The translations under genes and the position numbers were made by a program. Below, one piece after another: positions 23,054 to 42,550 of a stretch of DNA of 42,550 nt. Where the stretch lies: positions 1-42,550 of the IMG/VR virus record IMGVR_UViG_3300015194_000006. One strand, 5' to 3'. How positions within the stretch are numbered: the first letter of the stretch is position 1; every line of letters starts with the position of its first letter. This DNA comes from a virus. The notes under the pieces were generated by a model, which worked only from the letters and a program-made list of their open reading frames with translations, was not told where the DNA came from and did no database searches.

Positions 23054-23502
23054 TTCGTCACCTCGTAGCTATCGAAGAATCCAAGCTCCACCTTGAGCCG
23101 CGCGAGCAAGTCCATCTCCTTGCCGTACCGCGCCTCAAAGCCGCGCTTGTCGTGGTGCCGGCTCACCATGCCGAACTGAGCGCCGCCCTTGTGGTGCCCC
23201 GGGTCGCACAGCGGCAGAGTGAACAGGTGCCCCATGCGAACCCCTCCGCGCAGGATGTGGTGGATCGCCGTGGGCCGGGGCGCCTGGCCGTCCATCCGGC
23301 AGGCGATGCAGCCGTGGCAGGCGGCGGCGTTCATCCACTCGCGCTCGGCCACGGTCGGCGCGCGCTTGCCGGGGCGGGCCTTGGTGCCCTTCGGCACGGC
23401 GCAGACCTCACCCTCGATGCGCGTTCCCTGGCGGAACATCCCCGGCTCGACCGGGTAGAGGATGCGCGGCGGGCGCTCTGGCAGCTTGCGGGCGAAGGCC
23501 AT
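23050..23502 (-). CDS. Ref-like (RecA-dependent nuclease type) HNH protein
   Basis: A 150-residue protein from ATG 23502, overlapping the RecT stop (ATGA). It has a Cys triplet CHGCIACRMDG (C62, C65, C68), then AIHHILRG (H81, H82), GHLFTLPLCDPGHHKG (H92, C99, H103, H104) and SRHHDKRGFEARYGKEMDLL. This order matches P1 Ref and the phage proteins related to it, an HNH-fold nuclease that cuts DNA within a RecA filament. Here it would work in phage recombination with RecT. Catalytic histidines are present. Confidence 0.8.
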   Translation of the reverse strand: MAFARKLPERPPRILYPVEPGMFRQGTRIEGEVCAVPKGTKARPGKRAPTVAEREWMNAAACHGCIACRMDGQAPRPTAIHHILRGGVRMGHLFTLPLCDPGHHKGGAQFGMVSRHHDKRGFEARYGKEMDLLARLKVELGFFDSYEVTK

Positions 23503-24515
23503 CACGTTGCCTCGGCCTCGGGCTTGGCCTTCGCAGCGGCCTTGCGGCGCACGTCGCCTTCCTCCTTGAGCGCCCGGCGCAGGTCGGACGGCAGCACGGA
23601 CCACAGGGCTACCTTGCAGTCGTTGTCCATCGCCTCGATCTCGATGCGCTCGAAGGAGAACGTGACGCCGCGCTCCGGGTCGCGGAACATCTCTTCGACC
23701 TCGCCGGCCAGCTCGCGCAGGTAGTTCTGCGTCTCGACGTTGAGCGAAGCCATCGCGCCGTCCGTGCCCTTGATGACGCCGGGGCCGGTCGCGGGCGCTT
23801 GGTGGATGTCGGCCAGGCCCTCGCCGCCGTCGTTGTTCAGGTAGTCGATGGCACGCTCGACCTTGTCGAAGCGCTCGGTCTTCGGCCAGAGCTTGTAGGC
23901 GCGCTTGATGACCGTCTTCTTGATCATCTCGGACTCGTCCGTCACCCACGGGCACTTCGCCTTCTTGGAGACAAACGCCTTCCAGGCCGAGGAACGGTCG
24001 CGGATGGCGTACACCTCGTCGATGCTCATGCAGGTCGTGAGGTAGTCGCCGTCGCGGGTCTTGACGACCACGTAGGCGCCAACGATGTCACCCCGGTCCT
24101 TGGCGAACGGGTCGCGGTCGTGTTCGGGCGGCTTGTCGAAGCCGCGCAGCTTGAACGCGTCCTTGCCGTGGACGACCTCGGCCTGACCCCACCGCACGGA
24201 CCCGGACTGGATCGCCAGGTCGAGCAGGCCCATGTAGCTGATGTCCAGGCAGATGCGCCCGTCACGCGGCACGAGGTAGGCTTGCTTCTTGGCAGGGTTC
24301 AGGCTGATGCCGATGGCCGCGACGTTCGTCACCGCGTTGATGACGGACTGCCGGTTGTCCATCGCCAGCTTGAGCGCGTAGTCGTTGGCCTGGAGCACCT
24401 GAATGGCGAAGCCGGCCTCCTTCTCGAAGATGCGCTCGTCGCCGGCCAGGGCGTTGAAGCGGTCGCGCAGACCGTAGATGTCGTCGCGGATGATGGCGAG
24501 GGCGTTGGATGCCAT
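23502..24515 (-). CDS. recT: RecT-family single-strand annealing protein
   Basis: A 337-residue protein starting at ATG 24515 with GAGGAAA upstream. The RecT core is clear: FAIQVLQANDYALKLAMDNR, VTNVAAIGISLNPAKKQAYL, GRICLDISYMGLLDLAIQSG, VVHGKDAF, GDIVGAYVVVKTRDGDY and EMIKKTVIKRAYKLWP. RecT proteins anneal complementary single strands in homologous recombination. The usual partner exonuclease (RecE or YqaJ type) is not adjacent; the Ref-like and MmcB-like proteins in the same operon are the only nuclease candidates. The C-terminal third is acidic then Lys/Ala-rich, a likely partner-binding tail. Confidence 0.9.
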   Translation of the reverse strand: MASNALAIIRDDIYGLRDRFNALAGDERIFEKEAGFAIQVLQANDYALKLAMDNRQSVINAVTNVAAIGISLNPAKKQAYLVPRDGRICLDISYMGLLDLAIQSGSVRWGQAEVVHGKDAFKLRGFDKPPEHDRDPFAKDRGDIVGAYVVVKTRDGDYLTTCMSIDEVYAIRDRSSAWKAFVSKKAKCPWVTDESEMIKKTVIKRAYKLWPKTERFDKVERAIDYLNNDGGEGLADIHQAPATGPGVIKGTDGAMASLNVETQNYLRELAGEVEEMFRDPERGVTFSFERIEIEAMDNDCKVALWSVLPSDLRRALKEEGDVRRKAAAKAKPEAEAT

Positions 24516-24949: not shown

Positions 24950-25341
24950 TGCTGGCTCCCGTGGTAGTCATCGAACACCCCGCACGTAGCCGGCTGCGGC
25001 TCGTCCGCTTCCTCGCCCAACCCGATGAGCACCACGCACGCTTCTTGCTGCGTCTCGCGCGACACGATCTCAATGTGCCCGGCATGGGGCAGGACGCGGT
25101 CATCGAAGTTCAGCGCGGCGGCGGTTGAAGCCGGCATGGGCACATGCACATCGCTCGCGCGGCGGTAGTGCAGCGGGTTGCGGTACACGACGGCGGCACC
25201 TTGGGGATGCAATATGTTCAGCACCTCGCGGGCGATGGAGCCCAACTCCGCGTTGATGGCGTCGCGCTGCTTCTCCAGCGCATCCCGGCGTTCGTACAGC
25301 GCGGGCAGGCGGGGGTCGTCTGAGGTGCGGCGGGCGGTCAT
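24946..25341 (-). CDS. Hypothetical early protein with coiled coil
   Basis: A 131-residue protein from ATG 25341, which overlaps the stop of the Ala-rich repeat protein (ATGA). Residues about 13-42 form a coiled coil (ALYERRDALEKQRDAINAEL), then come beta-rich segments (GAAVVYRNPLHYRRASDVHV, HIEIVSRETQQEACVVLIGL). The acidic C-terminus ends FDDYHGSQQ. No known motif. It sits in the leftward operon between the repeat protein and the RecT group. Confidence 0.65.
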   Translation of the reverse strand: MTARRTSDDPRLPALYERRDALEKQRDAINAELGSIAREVLNILHPQGAAVVYRNPLHYRRASDVHVPMPASTAAALNFDDRVLPHAGHIEIVSRETQQEACVVLIGLGEEADEPQPATCGVFDDYHGSQQ

Positions 25342-26021
25342 TGCGCGGCTCCTGCGTCGATCATTCGGCGCACGAGGTCCAGCGCGGAAGCCTGGAGCCA
25401 TTCGGTTGTCGGCTTGAGCGCGGCCTTGGCGGCGGCCCAGGCAGCGTCCCAGGCAGCGTCCCCGGCAGCGGCCCCGGCAGCGGCCCAGGCAGCGTCCCTG
25501 GCAGCGGCCCCGGCAGCGTCCCAGGCAGCGTCCCCGGCAGCGTCCCCGGCAGCGGCCCAGGCAGCGTCCCCGGCAGCGTCCCTGGCAGCGCGAACGTTCA
25601 CGCCAGTTGCTGCCGCCCCAGCCATGTCGGCGATGCCCTCCAAGTCGCGCAGCGCCTTTGCGTGCTCATGCAGCGCAGGCACGAGGTCCAGCCACTTCGG
25701 CGTGAACACGCGGATCAGCCAATCCAGCGCCATGTAGCTGCGCCGCTCCTCGATTGCATCGCTCGCTTTCGTGCCCACCAGGGACGGCACCAGCGGCTTG
25801 AGCAGCCGATTGCGAGCCTCGTCGTCTAGCGAGTCGTTCCACGAGCGCAGGAAGGCAGCGATCACGGGAGACGCGCACGAGGGCGAATCGCTCCAGTCCT
25901 CGCCGGCCACGTAGGAGACGGCTTCCATCACGCACATGCCGCGCGAGAAATCCGCGTGCGAGCCGGAAGAGAGGGCCAGGGCCTCGATCTGCGCGAGGCG
26001 TTCGGGGTTGAGGTTGAACAT
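25338..26021 (-). CDS. Ala-rich tetrapeptide-repeat protein
   Basis: A 227-residue protein. Residues 1-150 are a folded, mostly helical domain ([59 protein letters not shown]). Residues about 161-212 are a run of tetrapeptides of the form (D/A)-A-A-(W/G/R), encoded by a nearly perfect 12-bp tandem repeat; a C-terminal helix follows. The family of DAAW-type repeat proteins occurs in phages and bacteria, but no function is established that I can name. It overlaps both neighbours (ATGA). The repeat is in frame, so unit gain or loss keeps the protein intact. Confidence 0.75.
25429..25590. repeat. 12-bp tandem repeat inside the Ala-rich gene
   Basis: Twelve units of GCAGCG(T/G)CCC(A/C/T)G from 25441 to 25584, with a half unit after and a degenerate unit before. 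Only unit positions 7 and 11 vary. On the coding strand these change residue 1 (Asp/Ala) and residue 4 (Trp/Gly/Arg) of each tetrapeptide; all other positions, including synonymous ones, are identical. Confidence 0.9.
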
Positions 26022-26401
26022 CACACTTCGCCCCTCAACCGCAGCGAAGCGATGTCGTCGCCCACGCTGGCAACATGCTCGTCCGCGATGCACTCGCGCA
26101 GCCGGGCGATCAGCGGGTGGTCCAGCGTCATCAGCTCGCGCATGATCCGGGCGTATTCCGGGCCGCAGGACGCGTCCGACAGGTCCACCGTCGCCGGCTC
26201 CTCGGCCTCCACCCGGGCGCGGTGGTCGTACGTCGAGACCAGCGTCCCGCCAGCCTTCAGCGCCGCGATCACCTCGGCCCGCAGCTCGGCCTTGATCTGC
26301 GCCCGGATGTCCTCTTCGGCATCCACGCGCTCGTTCTGCGCTTCGTGCTCTCGCCAGGCGCGATCCGTGACCGCGTCGCTGATTCCGTGTACGTAGGACA
26401 T
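26021..26401 (-). CDS. First gene of the leftward early operon, unknown function
   Basis: A 126-residue acidic protein, the first gene after the leftward promoter at 26459-26487. It starts SYVHGISDAVTDRAWREHEA, followed by a charged helix (DAEEDIRAQIKAELRAEVIA) and a C-terminal part with SCGPEYARIMRELMTLDHPL and ECIADEH. AGAGAGG precedes the ATG. By position it corresponds to the N/early-control slot of lambda-like phages, but no antiterminator-like arginine-rich region is present. Function unknown. Confidence 0.7.
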   Translation of the reverse strand: MSYVHGISDAVTDRAWREHEAQNERVDAEEDIRAQIKAELRAEVIAALKAGGTLVSTYDHRARVEAEEPATVDLSDASCGPEYARIMRELMTLDHPLIARLRECIADEHVASVGDDIASLRLRGEV

Positions 26402-26458
26402 CTGGCCTCTCTTGCTGCTTCCTGCGGGGTGCAGGGGTCGTTTGCAGCAGTGAGGACA

Positions 26459-26487
26459 AGTCTAAACACGTTAGACCTGCATGTCAA
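26459..26487 (-). promoter_or_regulatory. Leftward early promoter (PL-like)
   Basis: On the minus strand TTGACA (26482-26487) and TAGACT (26459-26464) are separated by exactly 17 bp. The transcript would begin near 26452, about 50 bases before the first leftward gene. Both boxes lie in or beside repressor-type operators. The block is 34/41 identical to the rightward promoter block at 27496-27536. Confidence 0.75.
26460..26476. promoter_or_regulatory. Left operator 1 (perfect palindrome)
   Basis: GTCTAAACACGTTAGAC, a 6+5+6 palindrome with perfect half-sites GTCTAA/TTAGAC, covering most of the -10 box of the leftward promoter. Identical half-sites occur at 27519-27535. Confidence 0.8.
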
Positions 26488-26499
26488 ACGTCTTTGGAC
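26483..26499. promoter_or_regulatory. Left operator 2 (imperfect)
   Basis: GTCAAACGTCTTTGGAC, same 6+5+6 layout with half-sites GTCAAA/TTGGAC, centred 23 bp from left operator 1 and overlapping the -35 box. Its mirror copy is at 27496-27512. Confidence 0.75.
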
Positions 26500-26543
26500 A
26501 CGCGAGACGAGAAATTTGTAACGCCGCCGGGTGCAGACAGCAA

Positions 26544-26566
26544 AAGGCCCGCACGCGGCGGGCCTT
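26544..26566 (-). terminator. Rho-independent terminator of the repressor-lipoprotein operon
   Basis: Perfect 9-bp stem AAGGCCCGC/GCGGGCCTT with a 5-base loop; on the minus strand the stem ends in TTTTG. It lies 26 bases past the lipoprotein stop and before the leftward promoter, so it separates prophage transcription from the early operon. The rest of 26402-26591 holds the operators, promoter and 5' leader. Confidence 0.85.
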
Positions 26567-26591
26567 CAGGACGAGCGAGAGACGGGGTCTT

Positions 26592-26996
26592 CTATCGGGC
26601 CTTGCAGTTGTTGCCTTCCCAGGTGTACGACCGAACGACGCCATCCCACAGCGAAAAGCGGATCGTGCAGTTCATCTGGATGAGCATCGGCGCGCCCTGC
26701 TGAGGAACGTAGGTCGTGGTCTGCGCGGTGAACGGCCGGGAGTTGACGTAGCCGGTCGTCGTGGACGACACCGCTTGCGTGGTCTGGACGCCCGGCAGCA
26801 CCATCTGCCCGGAGCGCTCGAAGGTCAGCACCTTGGAGTGTTCATTGAACGCATACGAGCCAGACGGGATGCCTAGCCCGGAGACAAGCGATTGCTCAGA
26901 CGCCCCTATGTAGGTGTCCATGATCGCCCGGAACTTCTCTTGAGTCGCGCATCCAGCCAGGGCCAGCACCGCAGTCGCAGCTATCCATGCCTTCAT
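26592..26996 (-). CDS. Lipoprotein expressed with the repressor (lysogenic-conversion candidate)
   Basis: A 134-residue protein with lipoprotein signal MKAWIAATAVLALAGC; the acylated Cys is residue 16. The mature part starts TQEKFRAIMDTYIGASEQSLV and continues GLGIPSGSYAFNEHSKVLTF, similar in layout to SmpA/OmlA-like bacterial lipoproteins, with a C-terminal pair of Cys (MNCTIRF, GNNCKAR). It starts 12 bases after the repressor stop and ends before a terminator, so it is probably made in the lysogen. An envelope role such as superinfection exclusion is plausible; that is inference from position and lipidation. Confidence 0.8.
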   Translation of the reverse strand: MKAWIAATAVLALAGCATQEKFRAIMDTYIGASEQSLVSGLGIPSGSYAFNEHSKVLTFERSGQMVLPGVQTTQAVSSTTTGYVNSRPFTAQTTTYVPQQGAPMLIQMNCTIRFSLWDGVVRSYTWEGNNCKAR

Positions 26997-27008
26997 GGTG
27001 TCTCTCCT

Positions 27009-27464
27009 TTAGTGGTCGTCGGCCTTGCGTCGGCGGTCGTGCGCGACATTGAGCGCCTGAAGCCGGCGGTCGCCTGGTGCCGGTGTCGGCGCGACCCCGA
27101 ACGCTGACTCCACGCGGGAATCGGTAGCGGCCTCCTGCACGAATGCCATCATCACCGTCTTCAGGGTGGACTTCTGGCGCTCGGTCAGCGAGTCGAACGT
27201 CGCGGCGAACTGCATCGACTCGTTCGTAAGCGCGTTCTCCCACAGCAGGGCGTCGGCGCTGACGTTGTAGACCCGAGCCAACCGCCGCAGGCGCAGCGCA
27301 TCCGGGATGCCGCCGCCCATCTCCCAAGCAGACACCGTCCCTTTCTTCACTCCGAAGAGATCGGCAACCTGTTGTTGGGTCAGGCCCCGGGCCTCACGAG
27401 CGGCCTTGAGGCGCATGCCGAAGCTCTTGCGCTCTGGATCGCTGGCCTGTTCATCGACACCCAT
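27009..27464 (-). CDS. CI-like repressor, HTH type without peptidase domain
   Basis: A 151-residue protein from ATG 27464; ATG 27491 (nine residues longer) is an alternative, but the most plausible minus-strand promoter would start transcription between the two. Residues 16-72 are a clear HTH_3 domain (GMRLKAAREARGLTQQQVAD, LFGVKKGTVSAWEMGGGIPD). The C-terminal part is helical (FDSLTERQKSTLKTVMMAFV), probably for oligomerisation. There is no S24/LexA-like Ser-Lys protease domain, so induction by RecA-stimulated self-cleavage is not expected. It lies between the two mirrored operator pairs and is divergent from the Cro-like gene, as in lambda. Confidence 0.85.
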   Translation of the reverse strand: MGVDEQASDPERKSFGMRLKAAREARGLTQQQVADLFGVKKGTVSAWEMGGGIPDALRLRRLARVYNVSADALLWENALTNESMQFAATFDSLTERQKSTLKTVMMAFVQEAATDSRVESAFGVAPTPAPGDRRLQALNVAHDRRRKADDH

Positions 27465-27495
27465 CCATGGAGCATAAAAAGGCTCATCCATACCC

Positions 27496-27512
27496 GTCCA
27501 AAGAGGTTTGAC
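27496..27512. promoter_or_regulatory. Right operator 2 (imperfect)
   Basis: GTCCAAAGAGGTTTGAC, half-sites GTCCAA/TTTGAC, overlapping the -35 box of the rightward promoter. It is the mirror copy of 26483-26499 and lies just upstream of the repressor gene, where it could also affect the repressor's own promoter. Confidence 0.75.
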
Positions 27513-27536
27513 GACAAGGTCTAATGTGGTTAGACT
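27508..27536 (+). promoter_or_regulatory. Rightward early promoter (PR-like)
   Basis: TTGACG (27508-27513) and TAGACT (27531-27536) with a 17-bp spacer. Transcription would begin at about 27543, which is the A of the Cro-like start codon, so this mRNA may have no leader. Confidence 0.75.
27519..27535. promoter_or_regulatory. Right operator 1 (perfect palindrome)
   Basis: GTCTAATGTGGTTAGAC, perfect half-sites GTCTAA/TTAGAC covering most of the -10 box of the rightward promoter; centre 23 bp from right operator 2, as on the left side. Confidence 0.8.
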
Positions 27537-27542
27537 TGGGCG

Positions 27543-27863
27543 ATGGATCATCAGATTGCCCCTGAAAAAGCCGCTTTGGAGCGTGCCGCGCGCGTTTTGG
27601 GCGGTCAGGCCGCTCTGGCTTCGCTCCTCGGATACGCCGACCGCCGCAACGTCACGCCTTGGTTCAAGACGAGCCGCGCGTTCCCGGCCGAATACTGCCC
27701 TGTCGTGGAACGTGCCACGAGGGAGAAGCACCGGCAAGACCCTGAGGCGACGGTCGTGACGTGCGAAGAACTCCGGCCGGACGTGCCGTGGAGCGTCCTG
27801 CGCCGTGATCGCCGCAAGGACAAGTCGACCGGCGGGCGGCGCAGCGCAGAGCAGGAGGGCTGA
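27543..27863 (+). CDS. YdaS/Cro-like regulator
   Basis: A 106-residue protein, the first rightward gene. Residues about 10-65 match the YdaS/Cro HTH pattern: ERAARVLGGQAALASLLGYA, NVTPWFKTSRAFPAEYCPVV then ERATREKH, ending with TCEELRPDVPWSVLRRDRR, a typical YdaS close. It should act as Cro, binding the shared operators and opposing the repressor. The ATG lies only 7 bases after the -10 box and no ribosome site is visible, so translation is likely leaderless. The C-terminal tail is basic and Gly/Arg-rich. Confidence 0.82.
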   Translation: MDHQIAPEKAALERAARVLGGQAALASLLGYADRRNVTPWFKTSRAFPAEYCPVVERATREKHRQDPEATVVTCEELRPDVPWSVLRRDRRKDKSTGGRRSAEQEG

Positions 27864-27866
27864 GCC

Positions 27867-28256
27867 ATGGCCCACGTCCGCAAGCCGCTCAAGATCGACG
27901 GGCAGTGGTGCTGCCTGGACTGCAAGGTGCCGCTCGCTCCGCACTACCTCGCCGGGAATGGCGGCCCCATGGTTTTCCGGGGCCTTCGCTGCACACCGTG
28001 TCGTCGCGCCCGTCACGCTGCCCACAACGTCGTGAAGTGCCGCGCGCACCGCAGCGTTGCTGTGGCTATCGAGGCGGGGCTCCTGCTGCCCGTGACGATG
28101 CATCGCTGCGTCGACTGCAACGCGCCGGCCTGCGACTACGACCACCGCGACTACTCCAAGCCGCTGCACGTCGATCCGGTCTGCCGCCGCTGCAACCTCG
28201 TGCGCGGTGCCGGCGCTGGTCTGCCGCCCGCCGAAGCCTATCTGGCTCGCGCCTGA
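27867..28256 (+). CDS. Zinc-finger/HNH-like protein
   Basis: A 129-residue protein starting at ATG 27867 with AGGAGGG upstream. It has two zinc modules: an N-terminal CCLDC...CTPC pair (C16, C19, C42, C45) and a C-terminal treble-clef-like CVDCNAPACDYDHRDY...CRRCN (C81, C84, D92, H93, C106, C109, N110). The second has the D-H and C-x-x-C-N features of small HNH-type nucleases. It could be a nicking or structure-specific endonuclease, or a zinc-binding regulator. It sits between Cro and the CII-like gene. Confidence 0.7.
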   Translation: MAHVRKPLKIDGQWCCLDCKVPLAPHYLAGNGGPMVFRGLRCTPCRRARHAAHNVVKCRAHRSVAVAIEAGLLLPVTMHRCVDCNAPACDYDHRDYSKPLHVDPVCRRCNLVRGAGAGLPPAEAYLARA

Positions 28257-29597: not shown

Positions 29598-29974
29598 TGC
29601 GCCATACCCGCGACCTCAAGGCCATGCGTCACGACGGGCTGCGTCCTGGCGGATGGGTCTACCTCGAATGCCAGTTCGACACCCCGGAATGGCTCAAGTG
29701 GGCGTCCACCGATCCCGGCAATCCGCGCATCGTCATCGAAGCGACCGACCCCATCGAGCGCCTCGACCTTCGCTTCCTCACCCGCTGCCGTGTCTCCATC
29801 GACGGCGGGAACGAGGCCAGGGTGCGAGCCCTCTTCGCAGCCTGCCAGGACCATGGCGCCGAGCGCGTCCTGGCCCACATCCACCGTCCGAACGCCCACG
29901 GGGGCTTCGACCTCATCCACATCCTCGACACCGCCCACGTCATGACGTGGAGCATGGAGACCGCCAGTGTCTGA
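29594..29974 (+). CDS. Hypothetical protein between initiator and helicase
   Basis: A 126-residue protein from ATG 29594 (ATGA overlap; ATG 29597 is the next codon pair and also possible). The sequence has an N-terminal MRHTRDLKAMRHDGLRPGGW, a beta-rich middle (WVYLECQFDTPEWLKWAS, PRIVIEATDP) and HIHRPNAHGGFDLIHILDTA. It overlaps the helicase start by eight bases. No known motif; a replication accessory role is inferred from its location. Confidence 0.65.
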   Translation: MMRHTRDLKAMRHDGLRPGGWVYLECQFDTPEWLKWASTDPGNPRIVIEATDPIERLDLRFLTRCRVSIDGGNEARVRALFAACQDHGAERVLAHIHRPNAHGGFDLIHILDTAHVMTWSMETASV

Positions 29975-30911
29975 AATCATTCGGGAGTCGGACTTCGACT
30001 ACGCCACCTACGAGCGGCAGACCGAAGCCTCCGTCAAGGTCCGCCCGGCTTCGGCCTGGCGCGACGACCTCATCGCCGAGTTCGCGGTGCAGGAGGGCGG
30101 CAAGAGCCCCCACCCGACGATCACGAGCCTGCGCAAGCTGGAGGGTCGCATCGACTTCCTTCCCGGCGAAATCACCGTGTGGGCCGGCTACTCGGGGCAC
30201 CGGAAGTCCATGCTGATGGGCCAGGTCGTGCTCGACCTCATCGACCAGAAGCGCCGCACCCTCGTCGCGTCGTTCGAGATGATGCCGGCCCGGACGCTCG
30301 CCCGGATGGCGCGGCAGGCCAGCGGCCACCGCTTCCCCACCCCCGCATGGCTGGAGCGCTTCGGGCACTGGACGGACGGCAGGCTGTGGGTCTTCGACCA
30401 CATGGGCCGGCTGTCGCCCTCGATGATGCTGGCGGTCTGCCGGTACTTCGCCGAAGAGAAGAAGGGCCAACACATCGTCATCGACTCCATGATGATGGTC
30501 TGCGCCTCCGAGGAATCGATGGACGAACAGAAGCAGTTCGCCACGGACCTCGTCCGCATCGCGCAGGAGACGGGCCTGCACCTTCACCTCGTTGCCCACT
30601 GCCGCAAGCCGCAGGCCGGGGACGAGAAGGCGCCCACGAAGTACGACGTGCGCGGGTCCGCCGCCATCACGGACCAGGCGCACAACGTCATCACCGTGTG
30701 GGCGAACAAGGGCAAGGCGGACAAGCTCCCGAAGGCACAGGCGAACGACGTGCTCGCGCTCCAGGCTCAGCCGGACGCCGTGGTGAGCGTCGAGAAGCAG
30801 CGCAGCGGCTCCTACGAGGGCAAGGTGCAGCTCTGGTTCGATGAGCGCTCCCTGCGGTTCATGGACGACCGCACCGAGCGCGTCGAGCCCTATGCGGGGG
30901 TGTTCGCGTGA
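29967..30911 (+). CDS. RecA-fold replicative helicase/ATPase (DnaB-like)
   Basis: A 314-residue single-domain ATPase from GTG 29967. Walker A region is VWAGYSGHRKSMLMGQ (residues 71-86); the last P-loop glycine is Arg (GYSGHRKS, 74-81). Motif 1a follows (TLVASFEMMPARTLARM), Walker B is HIVIDSMMMV, then HLVAHCRKP and TKYDVRGSAAITDQAHNVI as motifs 3-4, ending with a strand-rich region with an arginine-finger-like KQRSGSYEGK. This is the DnaB/gp4 helicase core without primase or N-terminal DnaB domain. It should unwind DNA after loading by the initiator. It overlaps the downstream gene by GTGA. Confidence 0.85.
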   Translation: MSEIIRESDFDYATYERQTEASVKVRPASAWRDDLIAEFAVQEGGKSPHPTITSLRKLEGRIDFLPGEITVWAGYSGHRKSMLMGQVVLDLIDQKRRTLVASFEMMPARTLARMARQASGHRFPTPAWLERFGHWTDGRLWVFDHMGRLSPSMMLAVCRYFAEEKKGQHIVIDSMMMVCASEESMDEQKQFATDLVRIAQETGLHLHLVAHCRKPQAGDEKAPTKYDVRGSAAITDQAHNVITVWANKGKADKLPKAQANDVLALQAQPDAVVSVEKQRSGSYEGKVQLWFDERSLRFMDDRTERVEPYAGVFA

Positions 30912-40330: not shown

Positions 40331-42538
40331 ATGGCGCTCGTATCCGCAGGCACTTCCGCGTCGTACACCTTCGCCGAGGGCGAGTCGGCCACGATCACGC
40401 TTGACCAGGGCGAAGAAGCCCGGGTCGGCGTGACCTCGGCGGCTGGGCGCGACAAGTTCGGCGGTGCGGTGACGGCTCCGCGCGTCATCGGGCCGTTCTC
40501 GGCAGGAGATGTGCTGTCAATCACCGCCATGCGCGGGGATGTGGACTACACGATCTCGTCTGTCGGTGGATTCGGCTTGCCAGCCTCTCTCACCGCTGCT
40601 CAGGTAGCAGCGGGAGGGGTGGGGGCTAACTCCTCGGATGCATATGGCACGGTGATCCCGCCGAGCGGCGTTCCCGCCGTTCTTTTGCGCAACCTGGTGA
40701 CACCCAGCTATCGGCTGGGCTACGCGAGGAACCTGCCGCGCGAAGCTGCTCCGACCATCTCGGTCAGCGCCTCGGCGATGGCGTCGCCCCAGACGTTCGA
40801 CGGCTGCAACACCGCGACCGGCCTTCCGCGCTTCGAAAAGTTCGCCTTCTACGGTGCCGGCAAGACGCTGTTCGCGCCCCGTTCGTCGGCCGTGACGCAG
40901 AACAAGCTCGTCGTCGCATCGCGGGCATCTGCCGACACGCTTGGCTTGCCGCCGTTCACGACCTCGTTCTACCTCACGAGCTACGGCGGTTCGTTCGACA
41001 TCATCTACTACAAGGATGGCATTTCCGATGTCAACCTGTTCGTTGATGGCGTCTACGTCGGGCGCATCACGTTCTCATTGCGTCGGGCGACCGCTCAGGC
41101 TGGTGCGGCCACGACGATGACGCTGGACGCAAGCGCAAGCGCGACCAACGGCTTCTACAACCAGTATTACCTACGCATCACTGGCGGCACGGGGACGGTC
41201 GGCGAAGTGCGCCAGATCACCGGCTACGTCGGTGCGACGAAGATCGCCACGGTGAACGCCGCGTGGACTGTCAATCCGGATGCCACGACGACGTTCGCGG
41301 TCGATGAATCGCCCATTGGCAGCATCGACCCGAACGGCGCCACGCTGCAATACATCAACGTCACCTTCCCGGCGGCATCTCCCCCGCAACCGACGACCCG
41401 CCTGATCCAGATCGCCGGCAAGCAGTTCATGGGCGTGAACATCGGCCAGAACGACGCCATCACGCCGGGACCTCCGCTAATCGTGGGGCCGACGATGATC
41501 TTCCTCGGCGACTCGTTCATGGACGGCACGCGTACGCCGGACCCTGGACTCCATCCCGTCTATGAGATGGGCTTCCAGCTTGGCGTGCAGCCGGTGGGCG
41601 TCTCTTCGGGCTCGACCGGCTGGTGGACGCGTGGCACCAACAACCGCCTCAGCTTCCTCAACCGAGCCTGCCCGCCGACCGAGGCGTGGGAAGTGGCGAA
41701 TCCGTCGAATCAGGGCGCGACAGGCGGGACGTGGACGATCAGCGTCACCTACAACGGGACGACGCAAACGACAAGCGCCCTCGCGTACAACGCCGCCGCA
41801 TCGGCCATCGAGACGGCGCTCACCGCCTTGCGATTCAACGGGTTCGACCCGTCGCTGAACGCGAACTGCCCGACCATCGGTCCGACGACGCAGGGATGCT
41901 TCTGCGTGGCACGAGGCGACATCGGGGCTCCTTTCATCATCGTGGCGAACGGCATGGTGGGCGCAACGATCAGCATCGACAGCAGCGGCCTCACGGGCGG
42001 CGTGGCTGGTCCGGTCACGCAGTACCTCGGCGACATCTACAAGAACGTCCCGCGCGACCCGAATGGCAACGCGCTCCCTTTCCTGCTCTACATGCAAGGC
42101 TCGGGCAACGATTCGTCGGCCACCGGCTACACCGACGCGAAGCTGCAAACGAACGCGACCACCATCGCGCAGCAGATCGTCGCGCGCTTCCCGACATGCA
42201 TCCCCTTCTTCGGCGGGCTGGTGACGGTCAGCGACGGTACGGGCGGGAACGGGATCATCACGGCTGGTGATGTCGCCCACAACGCCGCGATTCTGGCCGG
42301 CGCCGCCTACCTGCCGAAGATGCACGGGCAGGTTCCCTTCATCGACACCTACAAGGAAGGCGTGGGCGGCGAGGCGTACTACACCGGCACCGGCTCGGTG
42401 GGCGTTCCGACGAATGCCAAGCGCGACATCATGAAGTCGCTCGTGTCGTCTGGTCATCCGACCGGGCAGGGAAAGAGCTACTGGACCGCCCGCGACACGC
42501 GCGAGATGCACCGCCTGCTCGCTGGATTCGTCGCCTGA
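40331..42538 (+). CDS. SGNH-hydrolase tailspike (putative polysaccharide deacetylase/esterase) with two inserted modules
   Basis: A 735-residue protein. Residues 1-75 are the docking-like module shared with the protein at 171-1106. A beta-sandwich follows (about 150-375), interrupted at about 253-328 by a module with TMTLDASASATNGFYNQYYL and GEVRQITGYVGATKIATV. The SGNH domain has block I FLGDSFMDG (Ser395), a Gly block (GSTGWW), block III GSGND (Asn593) and a final His709 in SGHPTGQG. Between Gly block and block III, residues about 456-563 form a second inserted module (QGATGGTWTISVTYNGTTQT, TSALAYNAAASAIETALTAL) of a kind common in phage fibres. Probably removes acetyl groups from host surface glycans. 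The final Asp of the usual DxxH is Ser here. The gene crosses the circle junction. Confidence 0.82.
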   Translation: MALVSAGTSASYTFAEGESATITLDQGEEARVGVTSAAGRDKFGGAVTAPRVIGPFSAGDVLSITAMRGDVDYTISSVGGFGLPASLTAAQVAAGGVGANSSDAYGTVIPPSGVPAVLLRNLVTPSYRLGYARNLPREAAPTISVSASAMASPQTFDGCNTATGLPRFEKFAFYGAGKTLFAPRSSAVTQNKLVVASRASADTLGLPPFTTSFYLTSYGGSFDIIYYKDGISDVNLFVDGVYVGRITFSLRRATAQAGAATTMTLDASASATNGFYNQYYLRITGGTGTVGEVRQITGYVGATKIATVNAAWTVNPDATTTFAVDESPIGSIDPNGATLQYINVTFPAASPPQPTTRLIQIAGKQFMGVNIGQNDAITPGPPLIVGPTMIFLGDSFMDGTRTPDPGLHPVYEMGFQLGVQPVGVSSGSTGWWTRGTNNRLSFLNRACPPTEAWEVANPSNQGATGGTWTISVTYNGTTQTTSALAYNAAASAIETALTALRFNGFDPSLNANCPTIGPTTQGCFCVARGDIGAPFIIVANGMVGATISIDSSGLTGGVAGPVTQYLGDIYKNVPRDPNGNALPFLLYMQGSGNDSSATGYTDAKLQTNATTIAQQIVARFPTCIPFFGGLVTVSDGTGGNGIITAGDVAHNAAILAGAAYLPKMHGQVPFIDTYKEGVGGEAYYTGTGSVGVPTNAKRDIMKSLVSSGHPTGQGKSYWTARDTREMHRLLAGFVA

Positions 42539-42550
42539 TCCGCACCCCCA
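42424..42550. repeat. Terminal direct repeat, right copy
   Basis: Identical to 1-127. See the left copy: this overlap marks a circular or circularly permuted genome opened at an arbitrary point. Confidence 0.95.

Follow-up and report, generated by a model that had tools for sequence, protein, structure and literature searches.

Two inverted operator-promoter blocks enclose a repressor gene and a lipoprotein gene in the phage DNA studied here, and on sequence evidence and analogy the region is very probably the immunity region of a temperate phage, organised as a reduced lambda-type OL/OR switch with two sites on either side (2+2) and resembling the PaaR2/YdaS switch of CP-933P. That we are dealing with a version of a known device is well supported; it is new in its operator code, in having two sites per side and in its apparent AUG starts. 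To the sequence-only reading of the same DNA, which had proposed a lambda-like layout, our analysis adds the leaderless geometry, the inner site at -40, the identity of the Cro-like protein as a member of the YdaS family and a repressor in which no S24 domain could be detected.

The window, i.e. the whole stretch of 42,550 nt analyzed, stems from the virus record IMGVR_UViG_3300015194_000006. A 127-b direct terminal repeat at positions 1-127 and 42424-42550 makes it look like a complete record, assembled from a circularly permuted or terminally redundant genome. Judged by its genes, which include terminase, portal protein, Hc3 connector, scaffold, major head proteins, a tail spike-like protein, integrase, RecT and a DnaB-like helicase, this is a temperate tailed phage. 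Direct protein and megablast searches found no close relative in the named phage set, and the phage is therefore new to that set. Short tandem repeats of ggcagcgtcccc units are present at 25500-25600 within a leftward open reading frame (25341-26021). The features of the immunity region and its surroundings are as follows:

23502-24515, minus strand: RecT-like annealing protein by annotation, further along the PL direction
26021-26401, minus strand: first gene of the PL operon, no function assigned
26459-26487, minus strand: PL, TTGACA-N17-TAGACT, with a predicted leadered leftward early transcript
26499-26459, minus strand: left block, GTCCAAAGACGTTTGAC-ATGCAG-GTCTAACGTGTTTAGAC-T, 41 nt
26476-26460, minus strand: outer OL site GTCTAACGTGTTTAGAC, from sequence and family matrix
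26499-26483, minus strand: inner OL site GTCCAAAGACGTTTGAC, from sequence and family matrix
26544-26566, minus strand: GC hairpin AAGGCCCGC-N5-GCGGGCCTT with a short T run, between the lipoprotein gene and PL
26592-26996, minus strand: lipoprotein with LAGC lipobox, phrog_3716, 12 nt downstream of the repressor gene
27009-27464, minus strand: CI-like repressor, 151 aa, HTH_3 domain and helical C-terminal tail, from Pfam and structure model
27471-27476, minus strand: predicted PRM -10, TATGCT, ending 6 nt before the repressor ATG
27496-27536, plus strand: right block, GTCCAAAGAGGTTTGAC-GACAAG-GTCTAATGTGGTTAGAC-T, 41 nt
27496-27512, plus strand: inner OR site GTCCAAAGAGGTTTGAC, centre at 27504, final bases forming the PR -35
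27519-27535, plus strand: outer OR site GTCTAATGTGGTTAGAC with perfectly palindromic half-sites, final bases forming the PR -10
27508-27536, plus strand: PR, TTGACG-N17-TAGACT, predicted to initiate transcription near 27543, at the A of the cro start codon
27543-27863, plus strand: Cro-like protein of the YdaS family (PF15943) with a DRRNV segment, predicted leaderless
27867-28256, plus strand: second gene of the PR operon, weak HNH-endonuclease-like profile match (phrog_2340)
29967-30911, plus strand: DnaB-like helicase by annotation, further along the PR direction

The two 41-nt blocks match at 34 of 41 positions, as previously described, while the best inverted 41-mer in each of 60 dinucleotide shuffles of the 2-kb region reached at most 28 matches (mean 25.6). 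The imperfect site on the -35 and the perfect GTCTAA-N5-TTAGAC on the -10 were likewise found where they had been placed, and on the PR side the site centres lie 23 bp apart. Sites of the form GTCNAA-N5-TTNGAC occur exactly four times in the entire 42,550-b record. With a scoring matrix built from the family's own sites, and hence blind to sites of another code, the four sites scored 20-26 bits, the next position in the record 5.5 and shuffled sequence not more than 14.5. The absence of a third site also held up within the reach of this matrix, as nothing between the right block and the repressor gene scored higher than -8.8 bits, such that the window has two operators per side instead of the three of lambda. 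The repressor and cro genes diverge with operators between them and over PR, and the second, mirrored operator region lies over PL beyond the lysogeny operon. The notion of a lysogeny operon between the blocks agrees with the tandem arrangement of the repressor and lipoprotein genes, both leftward and separated by 12 nt. The hairpin at 26544-26566 is a possible end of this operon; it fell below the threshold of the tool used and was not called as an intrinsic terminator in the scan.

To find relatives, IMG/VR and GTDB contigs were scanned for two half-site-defined sites 6 bp apart. A strict 30-base operator pattern gave no matches; the loosened half-site pattern succeeded. The paired operator, which the sequence-only reading had suggested seeking in related prophages, recurred as a mirrored pair around repressor and cro genes in five other phages, which supports a lambda OL/OR layout with a different operator code. 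Four of these (L006, L008, L009 and L011) carry two strict blocks each; L008 is the prophage of Pseudorhodoferax sp. Leaf274, also recovered as L021, and is the only named relative. In L010 one block is strict and its partner combines one strict with one diverged site, so that one of the ten block copies departs from the strict pattern. A further match, L007, corresponds to the PL-side block of L009. In all of these whose genes could be seen, a short XRE repressor is enclosed by the blocks and a YdaS-type Cro comes next. The five relatives have unrelated spacers and divergent proteins. Searches of six whole records returned four sites each, three in the case of L010; among these records is the 6.7-Mb Pseudorhodoferax genome, whose only four sites are all inside its prophage. 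A search by Cro alignment, which is blind to operators, led to the same phages and additionally to L063, L066 and L069. The right block of L063 has mutated letters (GTCTAA-N5-GTTGAC and GTCTAC-N5-TTAGAC-T, with the ATG 6 nt on); this degenerate block is the only one visible there because the contig ends before any left block.

Among the twelve blocks compared, half-sites are fixed and spacers free, the half-site letters in most of the twelve rows having been fixed by the search pattern itself. Letters that the search left free are nevertheless also conserved: T14 and T27 in 11 of 12 blocks each, A37 and T41 in all twelve. T14 belongs to the -35 and A37 to the -10, and T41, which lies outside the palindrome, completes TAGACT. 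Thus the palindrome is bent so as to suit RNA polymerase too.

The two TTGACR-N17-TAGACT promoters noted before are the only ones that a sigma-70 scan of the 1.4 kb from 26300 to 27700 returned, with 0.2 expected. PL leads into the recombination region (RecT) and PR to cro and then to replication genes. For PRM no -35 could be matched and the inner OR site lies directly upstream of the weak -10 candidate instead. The start-codon geometry on both sides of the intergenic region was strikingly constant in the seven GTCTAA-code phages including the window, which are related by descent and were mostly recovered via the operator pattern: in 7/7 the cro ATG follows 6-7 nt after the -10, in 7/7 the inner site and the start codon of the repressor are separated by 30-32 nt, and the repressor and cro genes are 78-80 bp apart (78 bp in the window). 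The repressor ATG is preceded by TAnnnT at a distance of 6 nt in the window and in four of the five pattern-found relatives, the exception being L011 with CACGCT; in L063 the distance is 5 nt. These fixed distances, together with the usual spacing between -10 and start, imply that both divergent mRNAs start at the AUG or within 1-2 bases of it, and we predict that the repressor and Cro mRNAs are both leaderless. The centre of the inner right site of the window, 27504, falls at -40 relative to the repressor ATG, which would be an activator-like position comparable to OR2 of lambda.

We then considered YdaS-type cro genes irrespective of their operators. In 16 of 27 such genes from related genomes, 5-9 nt separate the end of the best promoter from an ATG, as opposed to 1 of 114 controls handled identically (Fisher p 4e-13); for cases and controls alike, as many as three ATGs were considered for each gene. 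Upstream of the divergent repressors TAnnnT occurs 5-8 nt before the ATG in 9/27 versus 4/308. Other Burkholderiales prophages keep the plan and differ in code, with GTGTAG-N5-CTACAC in L037 and TAAGGC-type sites in L034 and L042. Mirrored copies with other codes were found in L039 (29/41), L042 (34/41) and L045 (27/41), where null maxima were 22 and the count is limited by the 1.5-kb flanks. In L071 (E. coli) and L072 (P. aeruginosa) the best promoter lies 26-30 nt before the cro ATG. Leaderless cro thus seems to be the rule among Burkholderiales YdaS-type prophages and not in these two.

Membership of the window Cro in PF15943 is clear, with 56.1 bits against a curated cut-off of 30 (E 3e-15). 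Its profile matches the solved Cro proteins PDB 3bd1, 8c7k and 8co2 (E 9e-7 to 3e-6), the nearest solved Cro relatives, only about 40-63 of 91 profile positions matching; Foldseek with the Cro model gave weak HTH matches only. In the repressor, Pfam detected an HTH domain only and no S24 peptidase domain. Its structure model (mean pLDDT 71, residues 119-151 unreliable) consists of the HTH and a helical tail, and a structure search with it matched mainly HTH domains. Given that a LexA-type protease is not detectable in this sequence and model, prophage induction probably does not proceed via SOS self-cleavage of the repressor. The lipoprotein is a probable lysogeny-operon gene and may have a rex- or superinfection-type role.

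Lambda has 17-bp sites over the -35 and -10 of PR and PL, a leaderless repressor mRNA and an inner site near -40 of PRM, with PL leading to recombination and PR to replication genes. The window shares much of this plan: mirrored operator-promoter regions flank the lysogeny operon (cI-rexAB in lambda), 17-bp sites overlap the -35 and -10 of PR and PL, the inner site is near -40 of the putative PRM, the repressor is predicted to be leaderless, and PL and PR point towards recombination and replication, respectively. It differs from lambda in that neither side has a third site, in a repressor for which no cleavable C-terminal domain could be detected, in a Cro of another family whose gene is predicted to be leaderless, and in the operator code. 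Strict membership in the lambda type thus fails on the third operator and the cleavable repressor, while the reading of a lambda-like mode of working stands.

The closest characterised parallel is CP-933P of E. coli O157:H7, in which PaaR2 and YdaS compete for overlapping operators at PR/PRM and repress a PL copy with identical -35 and -10 (PMC8630535). The PaaR2 mRNA was found to be leaderless by 5' RACE and low PaaR2 activates PRM (PMC8630535). In that system the intergenic region spans 97 bp, OR and OL comprise three operators each, 18-bp inverted repeats are present in addition, the code is GTTTAGTAA, and the repressor operon contains toxin-antitoxin genes (PMC8630535). The window resembles it in the divergent pair of a short, non-lambda CI analogue and a YdaS-type Cro and in operators over PR/PRM with a copy at PL. 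It deviates by its 78 bp, two 17-bp sites per side, the code GTCTAA, a lipoprotein gene in the repressor operon and a Cro that is also predicted to be leaderless. No match to YdaT, the CII analogue, was obtained downstream of the window ydaS gene, where the next gene (27867-28256) is the weakly HNH-like one. In the linear-plasmid phage PY54, the cI and cro mRNAs are both leaderless by RACE and a single Cro site, OR3, lies by the repressor gene (PMC4488713); the window has no OR3 but two sites over PR and two over PL. A literature search did not find the GTCTAA letters joined with phage operators.

Which regulator reads the sites was approached via the recognition segments. The motif DRRNV is present in the Cro recognition segment of 7/7 GTCTAA-code phages and in 0/33 other YdaS-type loci, which are also without strict operators; one more Cro from another genome, L081, has neither DRRNV nor the code. 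Although a correlation on a tree, this link suggests that Cro is among the readers of the GTCTAA code. The recognition helix of the repressor, in contrast, is conserved in four of the code-sharing phages and different in L008 and L011, with the forms KGTVSAWE, VKTVYAWE and PKAFYHWE. As it is more variable than that of Cro, binding of the repressor to these sites is less supported than that of Cro. It could then be that only the YdaS-type Cro reads the sites and that the repressor binds elsewhere or overlaps them in part, giving a double-negative switch. Both the perfect tracking of the code by DRRNV and the differing repressor helices over identical half-sites would fit this, as does the fact that in CP-933P repeats of two types overlap and the precise sites bound by PaaR2 and by YdaS were not settled (PMC8630535). 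However, the repressor start keeps its fixed distance to the inner site in all seven phages, the family matrix, to which other codes are invisible, turned up no additional site of the GTCTAA type around the repressor promoter, and in model systems both regulators share or overlap sites. Taken together, we regard an exclusive role of Cro as unlikely. That the switch works as proposed but with Cro and/or repressor mRNAs leadered from upstream starts is, in our estimation, quite improbable: the distant promoters in L071 and L072 would allow for it, but no other sigma-70 promoter was found in the scanned region, and the 6-7 nt spacing in 7/7 GTCTAA-group phages and the strong excess in the wider family argue against it.

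Two further explanations concern the nature of the blocks themselves. The Pfam name of PF15943, "YdaS toxin", suggests a toxin-antitoxin module with the sites as autoregulatory operators, a possibility to which we give very little credence. Toxin and antitoxin genes would be expected in one autoregulated operon, whereas the genes here are divergent and a second, distant operator block is located at PL, as befits an immunity region; the named solved relatives of the profile are Cro proteins, and an mBio 2021 study argued that YdaS and YdaT are analogues of Cro and CII and not a toxin-antitoxin pair (PMC8630535). The 34/41 identity within one phage could also reflect promoters duplicated by recombination, similar by descent and without a shared regulator. 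This is scarcely credible because at the sixteen variable positions blocks of the same phage are often no more alike than blocks from different phages, half-sites and promoter letters stay fixed across phages, and both palindrome halves are kept although a promoter alone would not need them.

In the reduced lambda-type switch that we favor, neighbouring repressor dimers would occupy the two sites of each block. As these sites supply the -35 and -10 elements of PR and PL, both promoters would be silenced, PR with cro and then the replication genes, PL with the recombination genes. OL and OR may cooperate across about 1.04 kb. From its position 40 bp ahead of the repressor start, a dimer at the inner right site would activate the weak PRM in a manner similar to lambda CI at OR2; the geometry is compatible with such activation and with binding of both regulators to the shared operators. 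After infection PR would give rise to the YdaS-type Cro, which is proposed to read the same GTCTAA half-sites, displace the repressor and later damp PR and PL. Both regulator mRNAs would start at or beside the AUG and be translated as leaderless messages.

A broader proposal is tentative and in our view rather doubtful as it stands, namely that a widespread clade of Burkholderiales phages uses a minimal lambda-like switch in which both regulator mRNAs are leaderless and the operators double as promoters, with the outcome tied to leaderless translation. If true, the decision would depend on leaderless (70S or initiation-factor-sensitive) translation and on the translation state of the host, and lysogeny would be achieved without a third operator and without an SOS-cleavable repressor. 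As it has just two sites on each side and a repressor that is short and apparently not cleavable, the region lends itself to testing which parts of the lambda switch are dispensable. It represents a compact lysis/lysogeny switch whose operator code is conserved over divergent phages, and DRRNV is directly testable against this code. Where the family was examined, Cro genes labelled "YdaS toxin" look like leaderless lytic repressors, and adopting this reading would change the annotation of prophage gene starts and of toxin-antitoxin systems.

Several pattern matches were set aside. Only L021 was a relative among the 14 genome-contig matches of the loosened pattern. L016, L019, L020 and similar matches (Anaerolineales, Spirochaetia, Prevotellaceae) were recognized by inspection as short tandem repeats with a 23-bp period, and the remaining ones were taken as chance. 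BcepC6B cI/Cro (L005) was checked and is without the GTCTAA operator code, and the GTCGAAC sites of L012 seem unrelated to the GTCTAA operators.

Some of these sequences deserve mention in their own right. Metagenome-assembled genomes of Prevotellaceae/Cytophagaceae (L020, L022, L023, L025, L026) and of Spirochaetia MS499-42 (L017-L019) as well as L016 contain GTC(A/T/G)AA-N5-TT-N-GAC units, short palindromic sequences in tandem or near-tandem arrays with a 23-bp period that are seemingly unrelated to phage operators. The 63.9-kb viral contig L012 harbors four GTCGAAC-N3-GTTCGAC-like sites within about 140 bp (L012:1143-1284), perhaps the operator region of another phage. In Pseudomonas phage CF63a a tblastn match revealed a YdaS-type Cro (L072:2420-2690) that is unannotated in the deposited record. 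Finally, a type IV pilin gene (PF00114, N_methyl, E 3e-17; L006:9963-10451 of IMGVR_UViG_644736413_000001) and a second XRE regulator are situated between the two operator blocks of the prophage L006, and the pilin of this immunity region could be superinfection-exclusion cargo.
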